Below are positions 45,008 to 63,783 of a DNA stretch of 63,785 bases, piece after piece. Source of the stretch: Saccoglossus kowalevskii (Eukaryota > Hemichordata > Enteropneusta > Harrimaniidae). Location of the stretch: positions 223,113 to 286,897 of the forward strand of contig NW_003137329.1 of NCBI RefSeq assembly GCF_000003605.2. The letters run 5' to 3'. Each line of letters opens with the position of its first letter. Position 1 is the stretch's first letter. The notes under the pieces were generated by a model. That model was given only the letters and a program-made list of their open reading frames with translations. It was not told the origin of the DNA and searched no databases. Position numbers and translations under genes: made by a program.

Positions 45008-46288
45008 GGATATATACCCTCATATGATACTAAATATATACCCCATATGATACTAAATTAATGCCCCATGTGATACTAAATATATACCCATATGATAATA
45101 AATATATACCCATATATGATACTAAAATATACCCATATATGATACTAAATATATTACCCATATATGATACTAAATATGTACCCCATATGATATTAAATAT
45201 ATACCCCATATGATACTAAATTAATGCCCCATATGATACTAAATATATACCCATATGATAATAAATATATACCCATATATGATACTAAAATATACCCATA
45301 TATGATACTAAATATATACCCCCATATGATACTAAATATATACCCCATATGATACTAAATTAATGCCCCATATGATACTAAATATATACCCATATGATAA
45401 TAAATATATACCCATATATGATACATTGTACTAAAATATACCCATATATGATACTAAATATATTACCCATATATGATACTAAATATGTACCCCATATGAT
45501 ATTAAATATATACCCCATATGATACTAATTTAATGCCCCATGTGATACTAAATATATACCCATATGATAATAAATATATACCCATATATGATACTAAAAT
45601 ATACCCATATATGATACTAAATATATTACCCATATATGATACTAAATATGTACCCCATATGATATTAAATATATACCCATATGATACTAATTTAATGCCC
45701 CATGTGATACTAAATATATACCCATAAGATAATAAATATATACCCATATATGATACTAAAATATACCCATATATGATACTAAATTTATTACCCATATATG
45801 ATACTAAATATGTACCCCATATGATATTAAATATATACCCCATATGATACTAATTTAATGCCCCATGTGATACTAAATATATACCCATATGATAATAAAT
45901 ATATACCCATATATGATACTAAAATATACCCATATATGATACTAAATATATTACCCATATATGATACTAAATATGTACCCCATATGATATTAAATATATA
46001 TCCCATATGATACTAAATTAATGCCCCATGTGATACTAAATATATACCCATATGATACTAAATATATATCCCATATGACACTAAATATATGCCCCACATG
46101 ATACTAAATATATATCCCATATGATACTAAATATATATCCCATATGATACTAACTATATGCCCCATATACTACTAAATATATAACCAATATGGTACATAA
46201 TATATACCCCATATGATACTAAATATATACACCATATACTACTAAATATATACCCCCATATGGTACTAAATATATACTCCATATTATG
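45008..46288 (+). repeat. AT-rich satellite with 163-bp higher-order period
   Basis: About 1.28 kb built of roughly 20-24-bp variants of 'ccatatgatactaaatatat'. The variant 'aatgccccatgtgatac' or 'aatgccccatatgatac' recurs at about 45061, 45224, 45363, 45533, 45695, 45858 and 46021: spacings 163, 139, 170, 162, 163 and 163, a higher-order repeat of seven to eight subunits. The last 260 bp lose the order. Open frames on either strand (MGYIFNIIWGTYLVSY-type peptides) are repeat by-products. Confidence 0.95.
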
Positions 46289-47814: not shown

Positions 47815-48355
47815 ACACTAAATAATAATGAGCCTTTAATCACTTATTCAATACCATTCAGCGAGATTATTTAGAAGGAGAACTCTTAGTTTGTGGAGAC
47901 TTTCAACCTTGTTATAAACGTGGTGGTAAACTATCAACACATCGGCGCTCTCATCAAAATGTGGCTTAGCAGACAGGTAGACAGAGGTATATCTTAACTC
48001 ACGTAGGTACACATAGAGACAACAAAACTCACCAGTGTATTGAAGACTAGATATTTTCTTGTTATCTTTCAGTCTCCAGAAAAAAACGGTTAAGGAAAAT
48101 ATCACCCTGGACTTTTATTGATATCTATTCATTTAAAGTTTAATGACTCGAAACAAGGGCCAAGAAACGAAACTGAATGAAAAACGAGCGAAACGGAAGA
48201 AAAGAATTCGTTACCATTCCCAGTAGCAACGATCAGATTGGAAATCGACATTATGAGAGCGGAGGGACGAACACGAAATAAATTTTATCTCTCGAAAAAC
48301 GTTACGGGAACAAAACTATAAATAAAGATGTTTGCAAAAATCACCACAATTTTAA
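47815..48355. other. Non-coding
   Basis: No gene supported. The minus-strand open frame at 47848-48105 is unrecognised. Confidence 0.4.
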
Positions 48356-49269: not shown

Positions 49270-50412
49270 TTAATAAAAGATATTATCGAGTTTGGCAAGT
49301 AAGATATTGTGATAGATACTGTCAAATGTTTTAGAGAAGTCTATGAAGAGCCCATGAACTTATGAGTGAGATCTTTGTAATGTAATTTTTTTCTAAAGCC
49401 ATATCGGTGTTCATAGAACATGCTATGACTATCAAAATATTTAACTAGCTGTTTATTCATATCTTTTTCAAATAATTTACTAATTATAGACAAAATAGAT
49501 ATAGGTCTGTAATTTCCCATATCCCCAGATTTCCCTTTTTTGTGTACTGGAATGACCCGTGCTGTTTTCAAATAATCGGGAAAGAGACCTTGTGATATAG
49601 AGAGGTTAATTAGATAACACAGTGGTAGGGATATAACACAAGCTCTTTTAAAAGTCTGACATTAATGTGATCATATCCTGTATCCTTTCCATTATCCAGT
49701 GATACGATCATATCATGAACGCCATGCTCAGTTACAGGTTTGATAAAGAGTGAATATGGAGGTGAAGTGTGTAAATGAGAACGAAAGTCTCTACTTGACA
49801 ATGGGGTTTTTGTTTTTGAAAGGTTTTTACCAATATGTTCAAAAAAGTTATTAAAATCTTGTATGGGTAATTGTCTTACTGCCAGACACCACGTTCAGCT
49901 GACTTAGTACTTCTAAATTCTTGTTTTTGTTGTTACCATGTAAATCATTTATTATAGTGACCCATGTTTCTTTCATGTTGTTATGACTTGCAATGTAAAC
50001 AGTTATGTAGTGTAGTTTTTTTTTTGCCTTTTTCAGTATTTTCGTAAGAATATTTCTATATTTTTTTTATAATGAGTGTTATGTATCACTAAAATTATTG
50101 CTGACAAGTTTATGGTAAAGTTCACGTTTTCTTTTAATAGACTTTCTAATTGGTTTAGTTATCCAAGGTGTGTCTTTACATCTACGTTTACTCTTACCCC
50201 TCGGTTTTAATGGTGCATGTTTTCGTTTTGTAAAATGTCTGGCTAAAATTTCGATATATCTGATTTACATCATTGCAAGTCAAAACATTCTTCCATGATG
50301 CATTTCGATGGTCATTAACAAAATCAATAATTCTATAATTTGAAAAAATGTTGGTTAATGTATTATTAAGCAGAATCTCTTGGGATGCATTGAACAACAT
50401 TTCAAACAAGAG
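49270..50412 (-). mobile_element. LINE (CR1/Jockey-like) reverse transcriptase fragment, decayed
   Basis: Read on the minus strand, the order is an endonuclease-RT linker (FSNYRIIDFVNDHRNASWKN, then KPRGKSKRRCKDTPWITKPI), then FFEHIGKNLSK, HGVHDMIVSLDNGKDTGYDH, and the fingers of the RT: ARVIPVHKKGKSGDMGNYRP, ISILSIISKLFEK and YGFRK. The first catalytic-aspartate region follows as IDFSKTFDSIYHNILLAKL. The FADD motif and everything after are missing; the fragment stops near 49270. Several stops and frame changes show it is dead. It covers a different part of ORF2 than 10500-11258, so whether both belong to one family cannot be told. Confidence 0.88.
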
Positions 50413-50478: not shown

Positions 50479-51938
50479 GGAAAATCGAACATTCTGGGAT
50501 GCCTTGAACAACATGTCAAATCCCTACGTGAATCAAGGCCGGATTTGACAGTGGGCATCACGGTTAATGCAGTACATTCTTAGCTATAGCGAATATAAGA
50601 CATATCGTAAGTATCTCTATGCCATGTTACTTTAATTAAAAAGAAGTAACGCACTACCGATTGAGTATAGCAGGTTAGCAGTCATCACTGTTGAGGTGAG
50701 ACACTCTCATCACAGCAAATTGATATATATTGAGCAAACGCTCACTCACCCACTCATGTAATCGGTGTGGATTAGATTTTCAACATTTCTTTGAATTTTT
50801 GGACTCCGAGTTAACGACTCAGTGAATAGAATATAAAGAAGATCACAACGTTTACACTTATACAAAAATTGTGGGTGACGTCATTACAAATTTCCCGGCA
50901 ATTTTATAAAGTCCATGAACATATGTAATAATTACAAAACAAATGGCATGGTTTGGATCATGAAGCTCTGTCATATAAAGTCATTCCATTTAAATTGTTC
51001 TCACATTTGGGAGTTGATTTTAATATATATTAATATATGTTTCACAGACTTACAGACATGAATAGTGTGACATTCCATCTTATATCAGGGCCTTGACTGT
51101 TGTGATCGATATTTAATACATTCGCAATATTTTTCACGAGGAAATGTGTCTCGTATTTCAAACACTGTTTGAAACTCACGGTTCTAAACCCTTTATAGAT
51201 TTTCATATATACATTTTCAGCAAATCCCATTAAATATTTTTCACGAAATTCGTAATAGGAAAGAACACAGTGCCTATAATTTTTAATGGAATATGCTATA
51301 AAATTCCCCGAACATGTGTTACACTATGCATGAAGTAGTACACGTGTGCATGAGCTTTGATGGTTTGGAATTCATGGTCATGGTTCTCGTTTAATTTTCA
51401 TTCTAAAATTAGGGCTCGGTCGTATATGCAAGACCTGCATAGTGATCAACTCATGAATATTCATGATGTACCATGAATGTTTAGTGTATATAAAAGTTCC
51501 GCAATTAAGCATTCTGATTTGTCATGAAGCATTTTGTGTGACTCTTAATCTTTCCCACAAATAAATGAGAAACTCATTTTTTTCTATCTCTGTTTTTTAA
51601 AAAAACGTATTTTTTTGGAAAAAAAGTACTAACTCAGCAGAAAAACATCATCCCTAAATCAGATTTTTTTTCCAGTACATACTACGCATGACAGGAAAAT
51701 AACTAGGTATAACTAAGCATATTTTATGTACGTATGTACAACTTCAACAGCATCACTAACAATATTGATTTTATTCCATCTTCATAAATTGTACGCACTT
51801 CATGGCCCTTAACAATATGAACCATTTAGGTCTGCTGAGTGGAACTGAAACACATCGTCACCATGCATGAAGCAAACTTAGAGGGCGTCAGTCCTAGTCA
51901 TGCGCATATGCAATCCACATGTTTGCGTCAAGTTGCAA
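50479..51938. other. 5' flank of the coiled-coil gene
   Basis: No coding sequence recognised. TATATAAAAG at 51487-51496 is a strong TATA-box match about 440 bp before the ATG. 51325-51535 is dense in CATGA/TCATG words, including the 16-bp palindrome TCATGAATATTCATGA (51453-51468). AATAAA occurs about 70 bp after the TATA box, so an LTR-like origin of this promoter is conceivable. Confidence 0.4.
51487..51496 (+). promoter_or_regulatory. TATA box candidate
   Basis: TATATAAAAG followed by balanced-composition sequence; it is the best TATA match upstream of the five-exon gene. The distance to the ATG would require a 5' leader of roughly 410 nt. Confidence 0.35.
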
Positions 51939-51993
51939 ATGGATATTTCAAGTTGGGGATATTTAACGCCAGATAAGAGAGGGGGAGATGACA
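51939..51993 (+). CDS. Coiled-coil gene exon 1 (coding part)
   Basis: 18 codons plus one base, donor GTAAGT. An ACA|GTAAGT boundary after GGDD gives phase 1. Any upstream untranslated exon is not seen. Confidence 0.72.
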
Positions 51994-54900
51994 GTAAGTC
52001 TACACTATATTGATATAACGTCATATTAACTAGTCAGTATTTTTAATCTTGTTTATGAGTGATAATTAGAATCTTCCTGGGGCAGCGATGAAACTATGAA
52101 CAGCGTGGGGATTGTTACGTAATATTCATTCAATGAAATATTCAACTCTGTGAGTTGCATGGCGTCGCCTACTAGGATCAGCTTTTTCTCTGAGTTTCGT
52201 ATCCTCATTTTCATTTATTTTCATTTTTGCTCCAAATTGGCAGCGATCAACCCGTTAATTATATTTGTTAATTAGATTTGTCTTATTAATTGACTGACTT
52301 TGTCATAGAATAAGCAATATTATAACACATTGCATATTTAATTGGTTTTATCGATTTAATTAAACACATCATGACATGAAATTACTTGTTTTCTTCCACT
52401 TGTATACCTCAGCATGACGAACGTGTTTTGTTTGGAGTAAGGAACAGCATTGGCTCTTCTTTGAGTTGATCAAACGCTGGCAACACATTCCTGCACCTGA
52501 GAATGTTGAGGACTTTTTAAATATTTTTTTTTCAATCCAAAGTTTCTTTTATATTTATATGGTGAATTTTTGATATCGATAGCTGTAAATTGTATATAAT
52601 GTGAGTAGTTTTTGATGAGAGTGATACTGAATTCTTGTTCAGAAACATTATACAAATTTTGGCATCAACCAATTTTCAGGCTTCAGTAATTGTGAAACAA
52701 ACGATTAAGACCCATACGTCATACGTTGAATACCTTGCTTGGTGTGGCCGGTGTTTCTACTGAGTTTGGAGAACTTTGTAATCGTTAATTGGATTTATTT
52801 AAATTGGTAGGCTGGCAGTACGCACTTAAATCGTTACCCAAAGGTAATTGGTTCACAATTACAGGTTTATCTATCTTTTCGAAAATCAATATAATCTTTA
52901 CATACCACAATGCAACACTGTTCCTGTTTTTTTGCGCAATAACGTATTAATAAACGAGATGCACCCTGGGAATATCACCAGGTTATTCGATTACGTTCAT
53001 AAATGTTTGGTTTATTTATTTTTTATTACTGGGTGGTGCTCTAACCTTTCTGTGTGAGATTTATACACTCGTTTGAAATACTTGTCTGACTAATTATTTT
53101 CTCTTCGCACAAAGGCGAGTTCTTTTCAGTGGAATTTCTAACGGCGGAGAGCAAGAGGTAAGCTTATTACTCATAAGTTTGCACAATTTATTCCAAACTA
53201 GACACATCCCATCAATTCTAGTACAGAAAAAAAAACGTGCTTGGTATTTGGTATTTATCTCAATTTAGTTGGATTTGTATGACGTGTAACAATCAGGCTA
53301 GTATTAATGCGTTCCATGTCGTATTATTCATTATCAGGAAGCTTGACTTCTCATACGAAGATAGTCGGTATGTAAGTGTTCGTAAATTTAATATTTCATT
53401 CACACTTCATGGAAATGTTTGAAACATATAACTATTGAGTCGTGCGCCCTCTATGCGCAAAAATATTTGCAGAGTAACCAAGTTTATTGATGTCAGAGGG
53501 CGCACTTCCACATCTAATTATAATATCTTCGGTGACTGCCGATTGTTGTCTGTTGAAGTAACAGCATGAGAATAAACGAACATGGCCGTAGATATCTCGT
53601 TTTGAGCAGGAGAACTACATTGCATGTTTATCGCGTTCGATCCGTAGTTTCCATTTCACCCATTTTCAAAAATGTTCGTTGAAACCCACTTATACATGAA
53701 GTCTAATGATTTCATCTTAGGGATTCCTCTGTTTTGTATCTCAAGTGATATTGCAGTCGCATTGTATCAACATGTTATTTAGAAGAAAAATATATTCATA
53801 TTTTTACACCATTTTTCGTCCATCGATATCTAGACCCACATGACACAGAAGGAATATCTAAATATAATACAGTCTCAAGAAAAAACAATAAATCACCTGC
53901 AAAGTGAATTGAAAAAGTACGTATACACATTTGCTGCTTAAGATTATGTAAACAAATTAAAGGGCGGTAGTTGTCGCGCCACGCATGCGCGAGATATATT
54001 TGTCTCGTATAAACAAAGATGGCGATTTTGACTGTTGCGCACTTGGCAGATCAACGAGTACAAACTGAGACCCTACTAAGTTTCAAATAGGTATTTTATT
54101 AAATGTTTAGAAGGTATCGAAGAAGCCATGAGCGGTAATTAGTGCTAGTCGCGCCCACGTCGAACCTCATACTTGTGATTTCCAATGGAAGAGCGCATTG
54201 GATTGTGGGAAAATCAGTGTCTATCAGAGCGATCACTACCGCCTTTTAACTCTTTGTTGCAAAATGGTTCTGGTAGAATTCGTTCTCTACATTATCTCAC
54301 ATTTTACTTCTTAGGAGAATAGCTGAAGAGAGGGATAAGAGTATGCAAATGTATTTTCAACTGACGAAGGAAATTGAGGAGTAAGTAAACATTGTAATTT
54401 CTAATCAATTATTACAAGCCATTACCCCAACCGTCGCGAATATATTAACAGTTGTCTGGTGAACAAAAATAATTCAATGGTGCGACTACTCCTGTAAAGG
54501 TTGAATGATCACTGTGCACGTTTTGTGAAGTATTATGACAATCTACCGTACATATACATGACTTGTGTGATCCAATAATATTACTCCGCAAGAAATAACA
54601 GAACGACAATATTTCAGTATACATCACGGCTCGTGTTGCTATACTGCTTCTCAAGGGAAAAGCATAAACACTGGAAATTACTAACTTCCACTTACTCGCT
54701 GCGATTTCTTTGGTACGTAATCTCTAGATGGCGAGAAATGAGACCACTCATCACTTTAGGTTATCGTTGTCCCAAAAAACTAGTTCCGATGAATGTAATG
54801 AGGCATTTCAGAAAGTCTGATGACAGTGGATAGAATGCAAGTCGGAATGAATTAGTTTGAATTTTAGAGGTGTTTACGACAATACTGATATCAAACGGAT

Positions 54901-55779
54901 TGCAGATCGCTGGGTGTTGTCACGGTACATGCTGAACAGTTTGATAGGCCTACGTATCATCAATGTCTATCAATGGACATGGCATATGCTAACCACGTGC
55001 TATTTCATTTCATCGAGGTTGCCTCACCACAAGTTAGTCATTGAGGAAATTGTTAGTAATAACGTTTCTACCAAAATCTCTTCCAAAAAAATCGGTTACC
55101 ACAAACAATTATTTTTTTTTTCATTTTTTTTCAACTTTTTCAAAGTGTGTGTGTAATGGATGAATTACCGCGTACTGCACAAAGTACGAGTACTGTTATT
55201 TACAATACACATTTGAGTATGTTTTGGCGGTGCCCGTTTTTGAGCTCACCAAAACAGCACTGTAGTGCAAACACTACAGATTATCGTTAATTTATTATTA
55301 TAAATATCTGATTCTGGGGAATTTTATTTTATTTTATTTATTTTGAGAGGGCAGAAATAATGGATATTTTTTGGTATTTTGCCCATTTGGTTTTTCGTAA
55401 TAAAAAAACTAACATTAAGTAGTTTAATAGTAAACTAAAGTTTATTTGGAATTAAATCAATTACTTGATCTATATACACGTTTAATAATATGTGTTAGAC
55501 TATCGGTCGTATAGAACATATATTTAGTATTCAGGTTTCAATTATCTTCAATAAATAAATAAATAAAATAATTATTATATTGTATTCCCCTTGAAATTAA
55601 CTAATAATAATAATGAAATTGTATTTAGGTACAGAAAAGCAAATGAGTATTTGAAAAATGAGCTGAAACAGAAAAGAAAGATAGAGGAAACGAAGAAAGA
55701 GAAAGAAAATGCTCCAATAAACGTAACAAGAAAATATCCGAGACGTGTACGAAAAACCGTAACAAGATACGGTTTTTAA
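51939..55779 (+). CDS. Five-exon gene for a 130-residue coiled-coil protein, family unknown
   Basis: Exons 51939-51993, 53120-53157, 53834-53916, 54315-54380 and 55629-55779 have consensus GT-AG borders and mutually consistent phases (1, 0, 2, 2). They sum to 393 bp, 131 codons with stop. The start MDISSWGYLTPDKRGGDD has a Kozak-like context (caaATGG). Residues about 32-110 are heptad-rich and charged (NIIQSQEKTINHLQSELKK, RIAEERDKSMQMYFQLTKEI, YRKANEYLKNELKQKRK), predicting one long alpha-helical coiled coil. The tail is basic (TRKYPRRVRKTVTRYGF). No signal peptide or membrane segment is present, so a cytoplasmic or nuclear scaffold is likely; that is inference. AATAAA follows the stop by about 100 bp. 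Intron 3 carries a TTAA-flanked element. Another phase-2/2 exon could hide in the 1.25-kb last intron. Confidence 0.8.
53120..53157 (+). CDS. Coiled-coil gene exon 2
   Basis: 38 bp encoding (I)LFSGISNGGEQE. The acceptor follows pyrimidine-rich 'ttattttctcttcgc'. The AG at 53118-53119 is the only one of three nearby AGs that keeps exon 1 in frame. Donor GTAAGC. Confidence 0.65.
53441..53512. repeat. Short hairpin element with GTGCGCCCTCT arms
   Basis: 'cgtgcgccctctatgc' and 'gagggcgcacttcc' form an inverted repeat about 70 bp across, inside intron 2 of the coiled-coil gene. The same arm occurs at 8130-8149, so it is a dispersed element or its remnant. Confidence 0.6.
53834..53916 (+). CDS. 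Coiled-coil gene exon 3
   Basis: 83 bp, acceptor 'atatctag', donor GTACGT, phase 0 in and 2 out. It encodes THMTQKEYLNIIQSQEK and onward. The internal ATG at 53840 could serve as an alternative start. Confidence 0.78.
53961..54245. mobile_element. MITE flanked by TTAA, inside intron 3
   Basis: 285 bp with TTAA at 53957-53960 and 54246-54249. The left end AGGGCGGTAGTTGTCGC pairs with the right end (inward AAGGCGGTAGTGATCGC), 14 of 17 matching. TTAA duplications are typical of piggyBac-type insertion; the terminal sequence does not clearly confirm that superfamily. The body includes 'acaaagatggcgattttgac'. It lies only about 70 bp upstream of exon 4. Confidence 0.75.
54315..54380 (+). CDS. Coiled-coil gene exon 4
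   Basis: 66 bp, acceptor 'ttttacttcttag', donor GTAAGT, phase 2 to 2. It encodes RIAEERDKSMQMYFQLTKEI followed by E. Confidence 0.82.
55629..55779 (+). CDS. Coiled-coil gene last exon
   Basis: Acceptor 'gtatttag'; 49 codons from YRKANEYLKNE to the basic C-terminus VRKTVTRYGF and a TAA stop (55777-55779). Confidence 0.82.
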
Positions 55780-55878
55780 ATATTGTCAAATGTTATTGTT
55801 TTTTTATTACCTGTTTCACTTATTTTGTGATGTCATTTTAATACAATTGTCAATACTTTTTTGGGTTGTTGGGAAATG

Positions 55879-55884
55879 AATAAA
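55879..55884 (+). promoter_or_regulatory. Polyadenylation signal AATAAA of the coiled-coil gene
   Basis: The canonical hexamer lies 100 bp after the stop codon and is followed by an AT-rich stretch, giving a short 3' untranslated region. Confidence 0.6.
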
Positions 55885-55899
55885 TTATATTTTAAATAA

Positions 55900-56276
55900 T
55901 ATGAACGTTTGAAATTCTTCATCTCCAACGTCAAAACGTTGATTTGTATTCGCTGGTTTGTCAATTATGAAGAATTTACCCCAGCCCCCACCCCATCCCA
56001 CCATCGGTAAACACAGCTTATACACATACAGCACATGTATTTGTCGTGTAAATAAAAGTAAATCGAAGCAATAACAAGTATGTTGTTTGTAATGCGAGAC
56101 TGTATAAAAGTTTTGACATGAAAAAGCGAGTTTCGCTCGAAAAGGGACACCTTTAGTGTACAAGAAGTCTTGTAATAGAGCATACTTGAGTACAATTAAA
56201 GTAACACACTGTGCTGGTGTCTCCGATTTTGGGGAAATTCCTTGTACGCTCGTTTTGTTCCCCTTTTTTGAGATCA
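55900..56276. other. 3' flank of the coiled-coil gene
   Basis: A 130-codon minus-strand frame (55885-56277) covers this stretch. It begins at the edge of a MITE, ends at the polyadenylation site, is Cys/Phe-rich by composition, and shows no domain, so it is not annotated as a gene. Confidence 0.4.
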
Positions 56277-56497
56277 ATATACCTTAAACGCAAATAGCCA
56301 GTGAGATCTCGTAAGGAGCAAGGGAACCACGTGACCCCCTCTGTAGATTGTTACCTTCTCTGGCATCATCGAACTCACTGTTCTAAATTCCATTGCGATA
56401 TAAAACATTGGACGCCATGATGAGAGGCAATTATTTAAGGACCAAAAAGTCGTTGTAAACGAGATCTCTGTGGCAATTGGCGTCACATAAGGTATAT
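56277..56497. mobile_element. MITE with about 37-bp inverted ends (GAGATCTCGT)
   Basis: The left 'tataccttaaacgcaaatag' and 'gagatctcgt' pair with right 'acgagatctc' and 'cgtcacataaggtata'. TA lies at both borders. The inner 'gagatctcg' word recalls family F ends, so it may be a distant relative. Confidence 0.75.
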
Positions 56498-58725
56498 TGT
56501 GTAATATGAACGGCATACTTATTTAGGAGCAACACAGGTTGCATAAAACCTGAGGTGAAGTGGTGCTAACTCGGCTCTTAACGGGAACACTGGAAAATAC
56601 TCGTACCACAACGTTCATGAATACTTTTCAAGTTCTTATAGATCTTCGGTGACATGCAGACCTCGTTCTGGAATGAGTTACCTAAAATGAAAATTCTATT
56701 TTAAAGGGAACAAAGCTTTGGTGATGTCCTGTCATGCCCGTGTTCAGTAGAATTGTTTATATAATAGAACAATAATGTGCGAATGTCTATTGCTGCACCA
56801 ATGTGTCGATGTAAACACAAAGTAACAAGTAATTGCATTACACAGACCCCCCCCCCTCCGTGAGTTATGAAGTTTAGGAATCGAGATATTTCGCTGGCCA
56901 GCATTCATTAAAACAAAATGGCCCCTAAGCCTAGCTTTTTTTTAATCTGACCTGTAGAACAAAATGACGTCTAGTTTGAATAGAATCATGTCCAAGATGG
57001 GGACGGAAGCGCTCATGGACGTACATATTTCAATAGGTCCACTTTTTAACACTACAACTTGAACTCATTGTAATTTGTATATGTTACCACATACAGTATA
57101 CGTGATTTATTATTGTCAACAATATATTCACTATATTATACAAGAACCTTTTCTAGCGTGTTAACCACACTCCAGGGTCAGTCATCATTTTTTACCAGGA
57201 TCGCACCCGAAATACTTAGAATACGAAGTTGGTTGTTGGTGACATTGTACGTTATTACATGTCAAATCATTTATAAGGATAGTTATGGCCAAAGGTGTAC
57301 ATGTTGTTTCACGGCAATTATTGCAATCCTATTATTTGACAATATTTTTTTACATAGCAGGGGATATTTCTCGTTATGATATCGTTGAAAGTTCATCTGA
57401 TTTGTGTATTCTGTTTAGTTTGCTTTGGGTCACCATTTAAACAAGTTGAATAGAATCATGAATACATTTTGTATATGGAATAAAAACCATTTGATATTCC
57501 ATATATCCACAGAATCGTCCGGTGATCACTGTGTCGTCTCCAAGGTTACAGATGAGACGAAGCGTTTATATAAGGCGGAATTAGATACGTCAAACAGAAA
57601 CCACCAACAAACAAGATCCTCTCTGATTGGTTTTACTGTTATAATCCTAGTAGCTTCGCATTGACTTCAAATTTAAGCTTCTCGCAATCTTACAATGATG
57701 GGCATTTGTTTTCAAAGATCCCGTTTACTGAGAACGTTTTTATTTTGAAATTATGTACATGCCTTTTAAACCCGTTATTTAACTATTTGTTTAAAAACAT
57801 GTCATTGCCCAAAAAAATTTATGTTTCTTTGATGATTAGCTTCATTAAATTAGCCGCGCTCATATCTAATACAGTACTCTGTAATCTGTCCAAAACTTAC
57901 CGCGGTTGCGGTTAAAACTTAACAGTTGTTTTAGAAGCACAACAACACCAGGCGTGTATAACGACTATTAACCGACAAGATGGCACCGACTGATGGCGAC
58001 AGTGTCTTGCATGCTCTCATAATTTTATCTTTTTAATAGTTTTGGATCATTGGACTGGAATCGGGACTATTCTAGGAAGGATTTACTTTATGGAAGGCCC
58101 CAAGATGGTCTTTGTTGCATCTAGCCAATGATTGTATTATATATTGTATTTCAAGTCCAATCCAATTTCTATGTATATTTAAATATATTTAGCCAATAAA
58201 CTATGATTATTTCAATAACATTCATTCGATTGGAGCTTCTTGTATGACATATTTCAATTACATAACTTATTCTAACCATCAATATGTATTAAGCAACATA
58301 TCGATATACAACGAGCCAACAAGTGAAAGAAAAGAAATATTGGTTACAAAATTATAAGATGTTCACTAGGTTGTCTTTAAAACAGATGTAGCCAGATGTG
58401 TCCGGCACCCTGTCTTGGTCTCAACTATTCAGTCTATTACTGCATCTAGAAAACATTGACCACCATTCCTGTATTCTAAACCGGCATTTTATTTTGCTTG
58501 TAATTCTGAAGTGTATACATATAAAAGCAATGTAAATAGAAGTACGCGAGTCAAACCAGATTTTAGCACACCTTGGGTGCGAACTGATTCATTTCACACA
58601 TCGCCACGTACATGACGATTGGTTATTTCTCGCAGCGTCCATTCTAAGGTAAACTGAATTGCATTTATTTAGTAAATAAATAATAATTACACAATGCAAT
58701 TGAGTAACAGTAGACGTTCACTAAT
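56498..58725. other. Intergenic, no certain gene
   Basis: 57515-57660 is less AT-rich and contains TATATAAGG at 57568-57576, a possible core promoter. The open frame across it (57425-57664, including TESSGDHCVVSKVTDETKRL) is unrecognised. A 14-codon frame follows AAGATGGCACC near 57979. A poly-C run is at 56849-56857. Confidence 0.35.
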
Positions 58726-62514: not shown

Positions 62515-62685
62515 ATTTTAAAAACGGTGAATGTACATGAAACGAATAAATGAAATGAAGTGAGAAAGAAAGAAAAATATATTTGTAGGTATCACAGCTC
62601 GTATCATTATTTCATTTATTATAATTGAGTAACGTTGCATTTGATAATAGACTACATACTTGATAAAAGAGGGGAATATACTCAC

Positions 62686-63246
62686 AATAATAACGGACTA
62701 CGAGATGTTTTGGTGCACTATTGCAGGGGTCGCCAAATACAGACATGACGGTGTTCTTAGTACATGTTATCTCGCCATCGCATAAATCTTTCACTATGTC
62801 TAAGGTGTCGGTTGCGAAACACTCAGCGGGTTCCATAGTCGGGTCACCACATTCCTCACCCAGCCCATCGCCACGCCCATAGGTTGCAGAAAGAATCTGA
62901 ATTCTGCCATGGTCACAGGCGAGATTCATCATTTCTTTTTGGCATGTTACACTGGTTTTGACAAAGGCAAAAACAGACCTGGACGATAGGTCGCCATCAG
63001 CGGATATACTACAGTCATTCGATGGCCCATGTTTGGCATAGGTATCGGCTGCAGTCAGACCTGAGAAACACTTACGATTGGCCATCAAAGCAAATATTTC
63101 AAAAGCATCATTCCGTCGGTGGATCTTGGATGCACAGTTGAGAATTGTCTGCTCTGGTGTAAGGTCTTGCGGGAGCTGTCCACCGAAACTAATAGGTATG
63201 GCCCTGTCATCCAAGTCTTCTTTATAACACCCAACGTAAACATATT
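62686..63246 (-). CDS. WSC-like plus SUEL galactose-binding lectin exon
   Basis: A minus-strand exon of 561 bp, part of a 239-codon open frame (62612-63331) too long to be chance. It starts after 'gataatttag' and ends at a perfect GTGAGT donor (62685-62680), phase 1 on both sides, the usual arrangement of shuffled extracellular modules. Residues 1-100 form a WSC-like domain (YVGCYKEDLDDRAIP, CASKIHRRNDAFEIFALMAN, RKCFSGLTAADTYAKHG). Residues about 101-187 form a rhamnose/galactose-binding (SUEL) domain: CQKEMMNLACDHGRIQILSA, TYGRGDG, LCDGEITC, FGDPCNSAPKHLVVRYY, with the family's YGR and DPC signatures. Such lectins are secreted or membrane-anchored and bind terminal sugars. Signal peptide and other modules must lie on other exons, upstream past 63785. 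The open frame's own first residues (MNTLISIPRSS) are probably intron. Confidence 0.9.
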
Positions 63247-63302
63247 CTAAATTATCAAACAATATATACCTTTTTATACATACACCGCACCAAAGATTAC
63301 TG

Positions 63303-63783
63303 CTTCGGGGTATTGAGATAAGTGTATTCAAATATGTTTTAGGGTTGAACCTAAAACAGTCGACAGTGGAAGTATTTAGTGGTTAAAAGTGGTTAGATAT
63401 TTTAATATTAAAATATCAATAAAAGCCACGTTGAGCGCACGTAAACATTAACGGTGAGTATCTAAAAGACTCGAAAACGATTGTCAAATGACCATAGAAT
63501 GAAATGCACTTTTCGAAATAGGACAATATCTTGAGACAAGATCAGTTGTTCTGTTGCACTTGAAATGCATCTGATAACAGCCTTGTATACCTCACATTAG
63601 ATTCCCCTTCTCAAACAAAAAAAGATAGACATACCGTATTTTGGAAACCTGGGTTGACCACCTGTATAAATGAAGTGATATATACAATCAGTGATTGGTT
63701 GAAATCGACGTATACAACGCGTGTAAACAACTTGTTTATTATCATAAATTTCGCACGCACGCTGTGCGAAGACGACTTTTTAA
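63303..63783 (-). repeat. Duplicated lectin-module block, copy B (to the window edge)
   Basis: Direct copy of 62137-62514, offset 1166 bp, on the 5' side of the lectin exon. It carries an additional segment of about 100 bp (from 'gagtatctaaaagactcg' to 'cttgagacaagatcag'). It still matches at the last bases of the window, so the duplication may continue. Confidence 0.95.
63635..63661 (-). CDS. Candidate 27-bp mini-exon B before the lectin exon
   Basis: Same borders as mini-exon A ('catttatacag' and GTATGT). In phase 1 it is open (GQPRFPKY plus a split codon) and joins the lectin exon with GAA (Glu), giving ...RFPKY-E-YVYVGCY. It would be a nine-residue linker between modules. Evidence is splice consensus and phase compatibility only. 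Confidence 0.45.

Follow-up and report, generated by a model that had tools for sequence, protein, structure and literature searches.

Geminin is a small coiled-coil dimer and a substrate of the APC/C, Shugoshin has an N-terminal coiled coil and a C-terminal basic box, and sororin, securin and PAF15 are small KEN-box proteins which are substrates of CDK and the APC/C. The consensus of a CDK site is [ST]P.[KR] and the cyclin docking motif is of the RxL type. Here we describe a locus of the hemichordate Saccoglossus kowalevskii (contig NW_003137329.1) whose predicted product resembles these systems in parts of its layout. The 63,785 nucleotides that were analysed are called the window, and all positions and features given below refer to its forward strand. 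We consider it reasonably likely that positions 51939–55779 hold a coding gene in some form. As it stands this is a modest gene-annotation finding; if the set of motifs described below is functional, the product would be a so far unclassified substrate of CDK and the APC/C.

The predicted protein belongs to the size class of Geminin and shares with it, in its general layout, a central coiled coil and a candidate APC/C degron. However, the Pfam families that were listed up to E 10 include no Geminin model, and the candidate degron is a KEN box, two D-box patterns that were tried on the protein having given no match. The succession of a coiled coil and a basic C-terminus is reminiscent of Shugoshin. 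Neither an N-terminal nor a C-terminal Shugoshin model is among these Pfam families, and the protein is much shorter than Shugoshin. With sororin, securin and PAF15 the predicted protein has in common that it is small and charged and that it contains a KEN-box match and a CDK-type site. It differs from them, in a comparison made only via the Pfam and PDB searches, by its central coiled coil and by its basic tail ending with YGF.

The original prediction recognised no family for the protein, and for Pfam, NCBIfam and the PDB sequences we come to the same result. The best matches (E 0.04, 0.052 and 0.82, respectively) are unrelated proteins; in the case of Pfam ten families are listed up to E 10, with HMMER filters that discard most matches above about E 0.1. 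A search of Rfam gave no match. With the whole protein 16 pattern stretches were obtained in the collection viral_contigs, and with exon 6 as query 212 in genome_contigs, none of which was confirmed. As these are viral and prokaryotic collections and not animal genomes, the absence of a relative is expected for an animal gene. Exact peptide strings of the protein have no match in the literature, and the partial texts available of reports on small KEN-box coiled-coil proteins contain none that matches. In the own genome (572 Mb, 4830 contigs) the DNA of exon 6 has a single match, which is itself. The protein finds its own exons 6, 4, 5 and 1 with E-values up to 2.3e-4, the short exons 2 and 3 not being matched, and one further place, with E 5.65, is the end of a repeated element. 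Among the nine candidates scored neither a retrocopy nor a paralogue was seen. None of ten further open reading frames of the window had a convincing match in Pfam. The flanking stretches of the contig consist mostly of N (L008–L010 wholly, L007 in 7557 of 10000 positions).

For the gene model the region 51000–57000 of the window was examined. The original prediction joined five exons (51939–51993, 53120–53157, 53834–53916, 54315–54380 and 55629–55779), all of them said to be shorter than 160 bp. This join is literally present in the sequence: the exons measure 38–151 nt, GT-AG is found at all borders, and the 393 nt encode 130 amino acids plus a stop with the protein end PRRVRKTVTRYGF that had been claimed. 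The argument that borders, phases and length all fit together is nevertheless weak evidence when taken alone, because dinucleotide shuffles of the region, of which 100 were made, yield best chains that equal the six-exon model presented below in score. Furthermore, the five-exon structure and the length of 130 residues are probably wrong, since the acceptor at 53120 is very poor and an exon at 53338–53371 seems to have been missed. With a generic acceptor PWM the site before 53120 (cacaaaggcgag followed by TTC) scores −11.1 bits compared with +1.9 bits at 53115 (cacaaag). The junction 51993/53120 is therefore probably incorrect, and 53120 was rejected as the start of exon 2. As part of the five-exon join exon 2 reads ILFSGISNGGEQE, and with the start at 53115 it is read in another frame. 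One observation speaks against the correction: the native coding score of exon 2 is higher in the frame of the five-exon join (4.1 bits) than in that of the six-exon join (1.1 bits).

The exon structure probably needs to be corrected to six exons by adding the missed one. The corrected join is open over 432 nt, encodes 143 amino acids and runs in a continuous frame from the ATG to the stop through GT-AG exons, the donors being gtaagt, gtaagc, gtaagt, gtacgt and gtaagt in this order. Exon 1 (51939–51993) starts with the ATG, reads MDISSWGYLTPDKRGGDD and carries TPDK. Exon 2 (53115–53157), with its acceptor moved from 53120, reads SEFFSVEFLTAESKR. Exon 3 (53338–53371), which is new compared with the five-exon join, follows the acceptor ttattcattatcag and contributes (R)KLDFSYEDSRY; with its 34 nt it restores the frame after the 53115 start of exon 2. 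The first half of the predicted helix is encoded by exon 4 (53834–53916, THMTQKEYLNIIQSQEKTINHLQSELK(K)) and the putative coiled coil continues in exon 5 (54315–54380, RIAEERDKSMQMYFQLTKEIE(E)). Exon 6 (55629–55779, YRKANEYLKNELKQKRKIEETKKEKENAPINVTRKYPRRVRKTVTRYGF and stop) comprises the end of the helix, the candidate KEN box, the basic tail and the stop codon. The acceptors of exons 4 and 6 are weak with the generic PWM (−1.5 bits at 53834 and −3.3 bits at 55629). A putative poly(A) signal AATAAA is located at 55879–55884, 100 nt 3′ of the stop. A second AATAAA is found at 56051, and in DNA as rich in AT as this the hexamer is frequent. Over 700 bp upstream of the ATG one TTTAAA is present, and a search of this stretch for E2F, TTYGAA and CCAAT elements gave no match.

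Alternative forms of the transcript that keep the frame can be formulated. An acceptor of exon 2 at 53130 (ttcttttcag), 15 nt beyond 53115, would yield 138 amino acids, and an alternative donor of exon 3 after 53367 joined to exon 5 would yield a protein of 114 amino acids in which exon 4 is skipped. With the donor after 53371 the skipping of exon 4 is out of frame. The frame is broken when exon 2, exon 3 or the two together are left out and the other exons kept; these forms were rejected, as was an exon 6 acceptor at 55635, with which the best heptad stretch is lost. A gene that consists only of exons of 34–151 nt is overlooked by ORF scans and can easily be joined wrongly, and thus the annotation of non-model animals may be short of small regulatory proteins.

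The 143-aa protein has a mass of about 17.4 kDa and a pI of about 9.3, and its net charge is −4 over residues 1–44 and +7 over residues 124–143. A central helix and a basic tail had been proposed before. In the corrected protein a coiled coil and a basic tail are modestly supported by the heptad register in exons 5 and 6, by the helix model of exon 6 and by the charge of the tail. The best heptad stretch of 21 residues, QLTKEIEEYRKANEYLKNELK, spans the exon 5/6 junction and is equalled in 37 of 2000 shuffles, and among the seven shifts tested at this junction shift 0 gives the best heptads. The a/d pattern is modestly above the shuffles for the 35-mer (63 of 2000 as good) and the 49-mer (88 of 2000) and is weaker for the 28-mer (156 of 2000) and the 42-mer (168 of 2000). 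A structure model, calculated for exon 6 alone as a monomer and from a single sequence, consists of one helix from residue 96 to 120, followed by a tail that is not helical (mean pLDDT 86.9). With the end of the modelled helix at about residue 120, K119 and E120 are predicted to be the last helical residues and N121 onward to be non-helical.

TPDK starts at residue 10, KRKLDF at residue 32 and KENAPIN at residue 119 (119–125). The motif KRKLDF is created across the exon 2/3 junction and is present only in the corrected model. KENxxxN corresponds to the KEN-box consensus as it is given in PMC6927175. Judged from the sequence, the three motifs of the corrected model are candidates which could make a cell-cycle role of the protein more specific.

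The layout of the protein might give a hint how it could act. We suggest that six short exons, of which no second copy was found, encode a 143-aa protein with an acidic N-terminus that would carry a candidate CDK-type site (TPDK) and a candidate cyclin docking motif of the RxL type (KRKLDF). The central helix of about 70 residues (45–118) would assemble into a parallel coiled-coil dimer, and the C-terminus would provide a candidate KEN box (KENAPIN) and a strongly basic tail. Cyclin–CDK may dock on the dimer and phosphorylate it at the N-terminus, the two basic tails of the dimer may bind DNA, chromatin or another acidic partner, and APC/C-Cdh1 may remove the dimer via the KEN box at mitotic exit. 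Overall the protein could be a dimeric nuclear adaptor whose presence is limited to a part of the cell cycle. The sequence, the open joined frame, the composition, the heptad pattern and the motif matches are directly read from the locus, and from them we infer splicing, expression, dimer formation, a binding partner, phosphorylation and degradation of the protein. A chromatin or spindle role, which had been deduced from the coiled coil and the basic tail, might be inferred in the same way. The statement as a whole, an unclassified small coiled-coil gene product under CDK and APC/C control, is put forward as tentative. A more far-reaching version appears quite unlikely to us, namely that a lineage-restricted and so far unclassified animal cell-cycle protein, a coiled-coil dimer, couples docking at KRKLDF, phosphorylation at TPDK and destruction through KENAPIN to a chromatin- or microtubule-binding tail and that the 114-aa isoform shortens the coil by skipping exon 4.

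A real small coiled-coil gene that has no role in the cell cycle is a possible, also doubtful, explanation. The motifs would then be chance matches in a charged protein, and the product would be a basic-tailed helical adaptor associated with the centrosome, the cilium, the cytoskeleton or the ribosome. The evidence for the gene is the same for this explanation as for CDK and APC/C control. Of 10,000 shuffles of the protein, 936 contain TPxK, 327 a motif of the KR.L.F type and 93 KENxxxN; for KEN by itself the fraction is 10% and for a loose RxL it is 66%. However, the three motifs, which were picked post hoc after the protein had been seen, are found together in their full-consensus form in only 6 of 200,000 shuffles, and this argues for control by CDK and the APC/C.

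It also has to be considered that there is no gene, a possibility that we regard as less likely than not. In this case the join would be a chance chain of open GT-AG segments in a region with 34% GC, picked by eye because it looks like a protein. A generic exon-chain finder assigns 13.2 bits to the six-exon model and −2.9 bits to the five-exon model, and for the best chains obtained from 100 dinucleotide shuffles the median is 13.4 bits, the 95% point 28.0 bits and the maximum 34.7 bits. The generic scores thus do not exceed the shuffles, as would be the case for a chance chain. The top generic chain of the region, with 31.0 bits, differs from the six-exon model, as it consists of exons 1, 2, a shortened exon 3, exon 5 and three other segments; it is the seventh among 40 overlapping tile-strands of the window, 6 of the 40 scoring higher. 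The synonymous codon choice of the model also agrees with a chance chain. It is random-like with −4.5 bits (1000 random sets have a median of −5.5 bits, and 436 of them score as high as the model), and kinesin sets of the same genome lie between 0.7 and 14.6 bits (5–95% range). Measured against this kinesin reference, which comprises 20 of 52 kinesin matches that were picked as stop-free (1338 codons) and whose edges may hold a little intron, native synonymous codon choice was not found for the six-exon model. The native coding scores of exons 1 to 6 are 6.9, 1.1, 1.1, −5.1, 4.2 and 7.0 bits. The proposed frame is the best stop-free frame for exons 1, 5 and 6 and not for exons 2, 3 and 4, so that exons 2–4 are devoid of a frame-specific coding signal. 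The weak acceptors and the absence of a homologue from all libraries searched point in the same direction.

Other results speak against a chance chain and for a coding gene. For the coding log-odds 33 of 3000 random stop-free sets are as high with the generic measure and 25 of 5000 with the kinesin codons of the own genome, both counts being uncorrected for the choice of the chain. The coil-biased chain test, which allows for the choice of the chain, uses a coil-biased amino-acid composition that was not trained on this protein but was picked after the protein had been seen. With it the best chain of the region reaches 28.3 bits and exceeds all of 300 shuffles (maximum 18.2), the reverse strand of the region (13.7) and all 38 other real tile-strands from positions 1–48000 of the window and from 10-kb loci (maximum 26.4). 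This chain contains parts of exons 2, 3, 5 and 6, and neither the start in exon 1 nor exon 4 nor the stop belongs to it. The same finder gives the exact six-exon model 11.8 bits and the five-exon model −5.0 bits. In addition, every exon differs from every intron in its purine fraction, which is 0.53–0.72 in the six exons and 0.45–0.50 in the five introns. The value of the whole coding sequence (0.669) was reached by none of 5000 random segment sets of the same lengths. Its GC content was reached by 1727 of 5000 random sets, and thus the exons are not separated by GC. All three codon positions share the purine excess to a similar degree (0.69, 0.64 and 0.67 at positions 1, 2 and 3), and purines make up a smaller fraction of the kinesin exons of the same genome (0.48–0.60) than of the exons of the model; therefore, the excess comes partly from the K/E-rich composition. 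The continuity of the heptads over the exon 5/6 junction argues for a gene as well, as does the AATAAA at 55879, with the reservation that this hexamer is frequent in AT-rich DNA.

Finally, it is very improbable that exon 6, or the tail alone, derives by capture from the pol end of an LTR-retrotransposon, an origin that would be compatible with either gene reading. The tail NVTRKYPRRVRKTVTRYGF resembles NVPRRYPRRERKPTNYYGF in the stretch L006, which is repetitive (at least 7 places including itself, 75–100%) and reads integrase-like by eye; the shared pattern is NV.R.YPRR.RK....YGF with 12 of 19 residues identical in a count by eye. The tail pair scores 77 and exceeds all of 5000 tail shuffles (maximum 55), none of 1500 random genome segments matches the tail of the element as well, and when the exon 6 region is aligned as DNA under loose scoring it reaches 36, a value above that of every one of 500 shuffles (at most 31). 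Nevertheless, the match to L006 is the best of a whole-genome search and has E 5.65, under strict scoring the DNA comparison gives 24 and so stays below the 95% point of the shuffles (26), and 3 of 1500 random genome segments produce an equally good alignment with the exon 6 region. The 3′UTR and the coil parts, each taken alone, are below the 95% null points, and this locus is absent among the at least 7 DNA matches of the element tail. The likeness of the tail to L006 is significant when the two are compared as a pair, and it is not significant when it is taken as the top result of a search through the genome.

Intron 4 of the six-exon gene model contains a MITE-like element of 293 bp (53957–54249), whose terminal inverted repeats of 21 nt match at 86% and which has TTAA at both borders, as is the case for piggyBac-type elements. 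By eye, a left end resembling that of this element is also seen near position 48352. In intron 3 a perfect 11-nt inverted repeat is present (53442–53505), its arms GTGCGCCCTCT and AGAGGGCGCAC being separated by 42 nt.

The repeated element L006 (G000:C2722:539048-542140), whose end weakly resembles the exon 6 tail at the protein level, has integrase-like residues as judged by eye, and its pol-like frame contains NVPRRYPRRERKPTNYYGF and ends about a dozen residues later. The DNA of the L006 tail has at least seven matching places in the genome (75–100%), L006 itself included.

A tandem array of 1.3 kb (45010–46284) shows a higher-order period of 163 nt over a unit of 23 nt. The reverse transcriptase fragment at 49341–49661 on the minus strand (PF00078, E 1.1e-4, below the cut-off) probably derives from a LINE-type element. 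An open reading frame at 62612–63382, also on the minus strand, encodes a lectin domain of the SUEL (rhamnose-binding) type, matched at E 1.3e-13; the same frame has a WSC-like stretch scoring slightly below the cut-off. Kinesin exons are found on the window's own contig about 230 kb downstream (G000:C2886:509299-511293).
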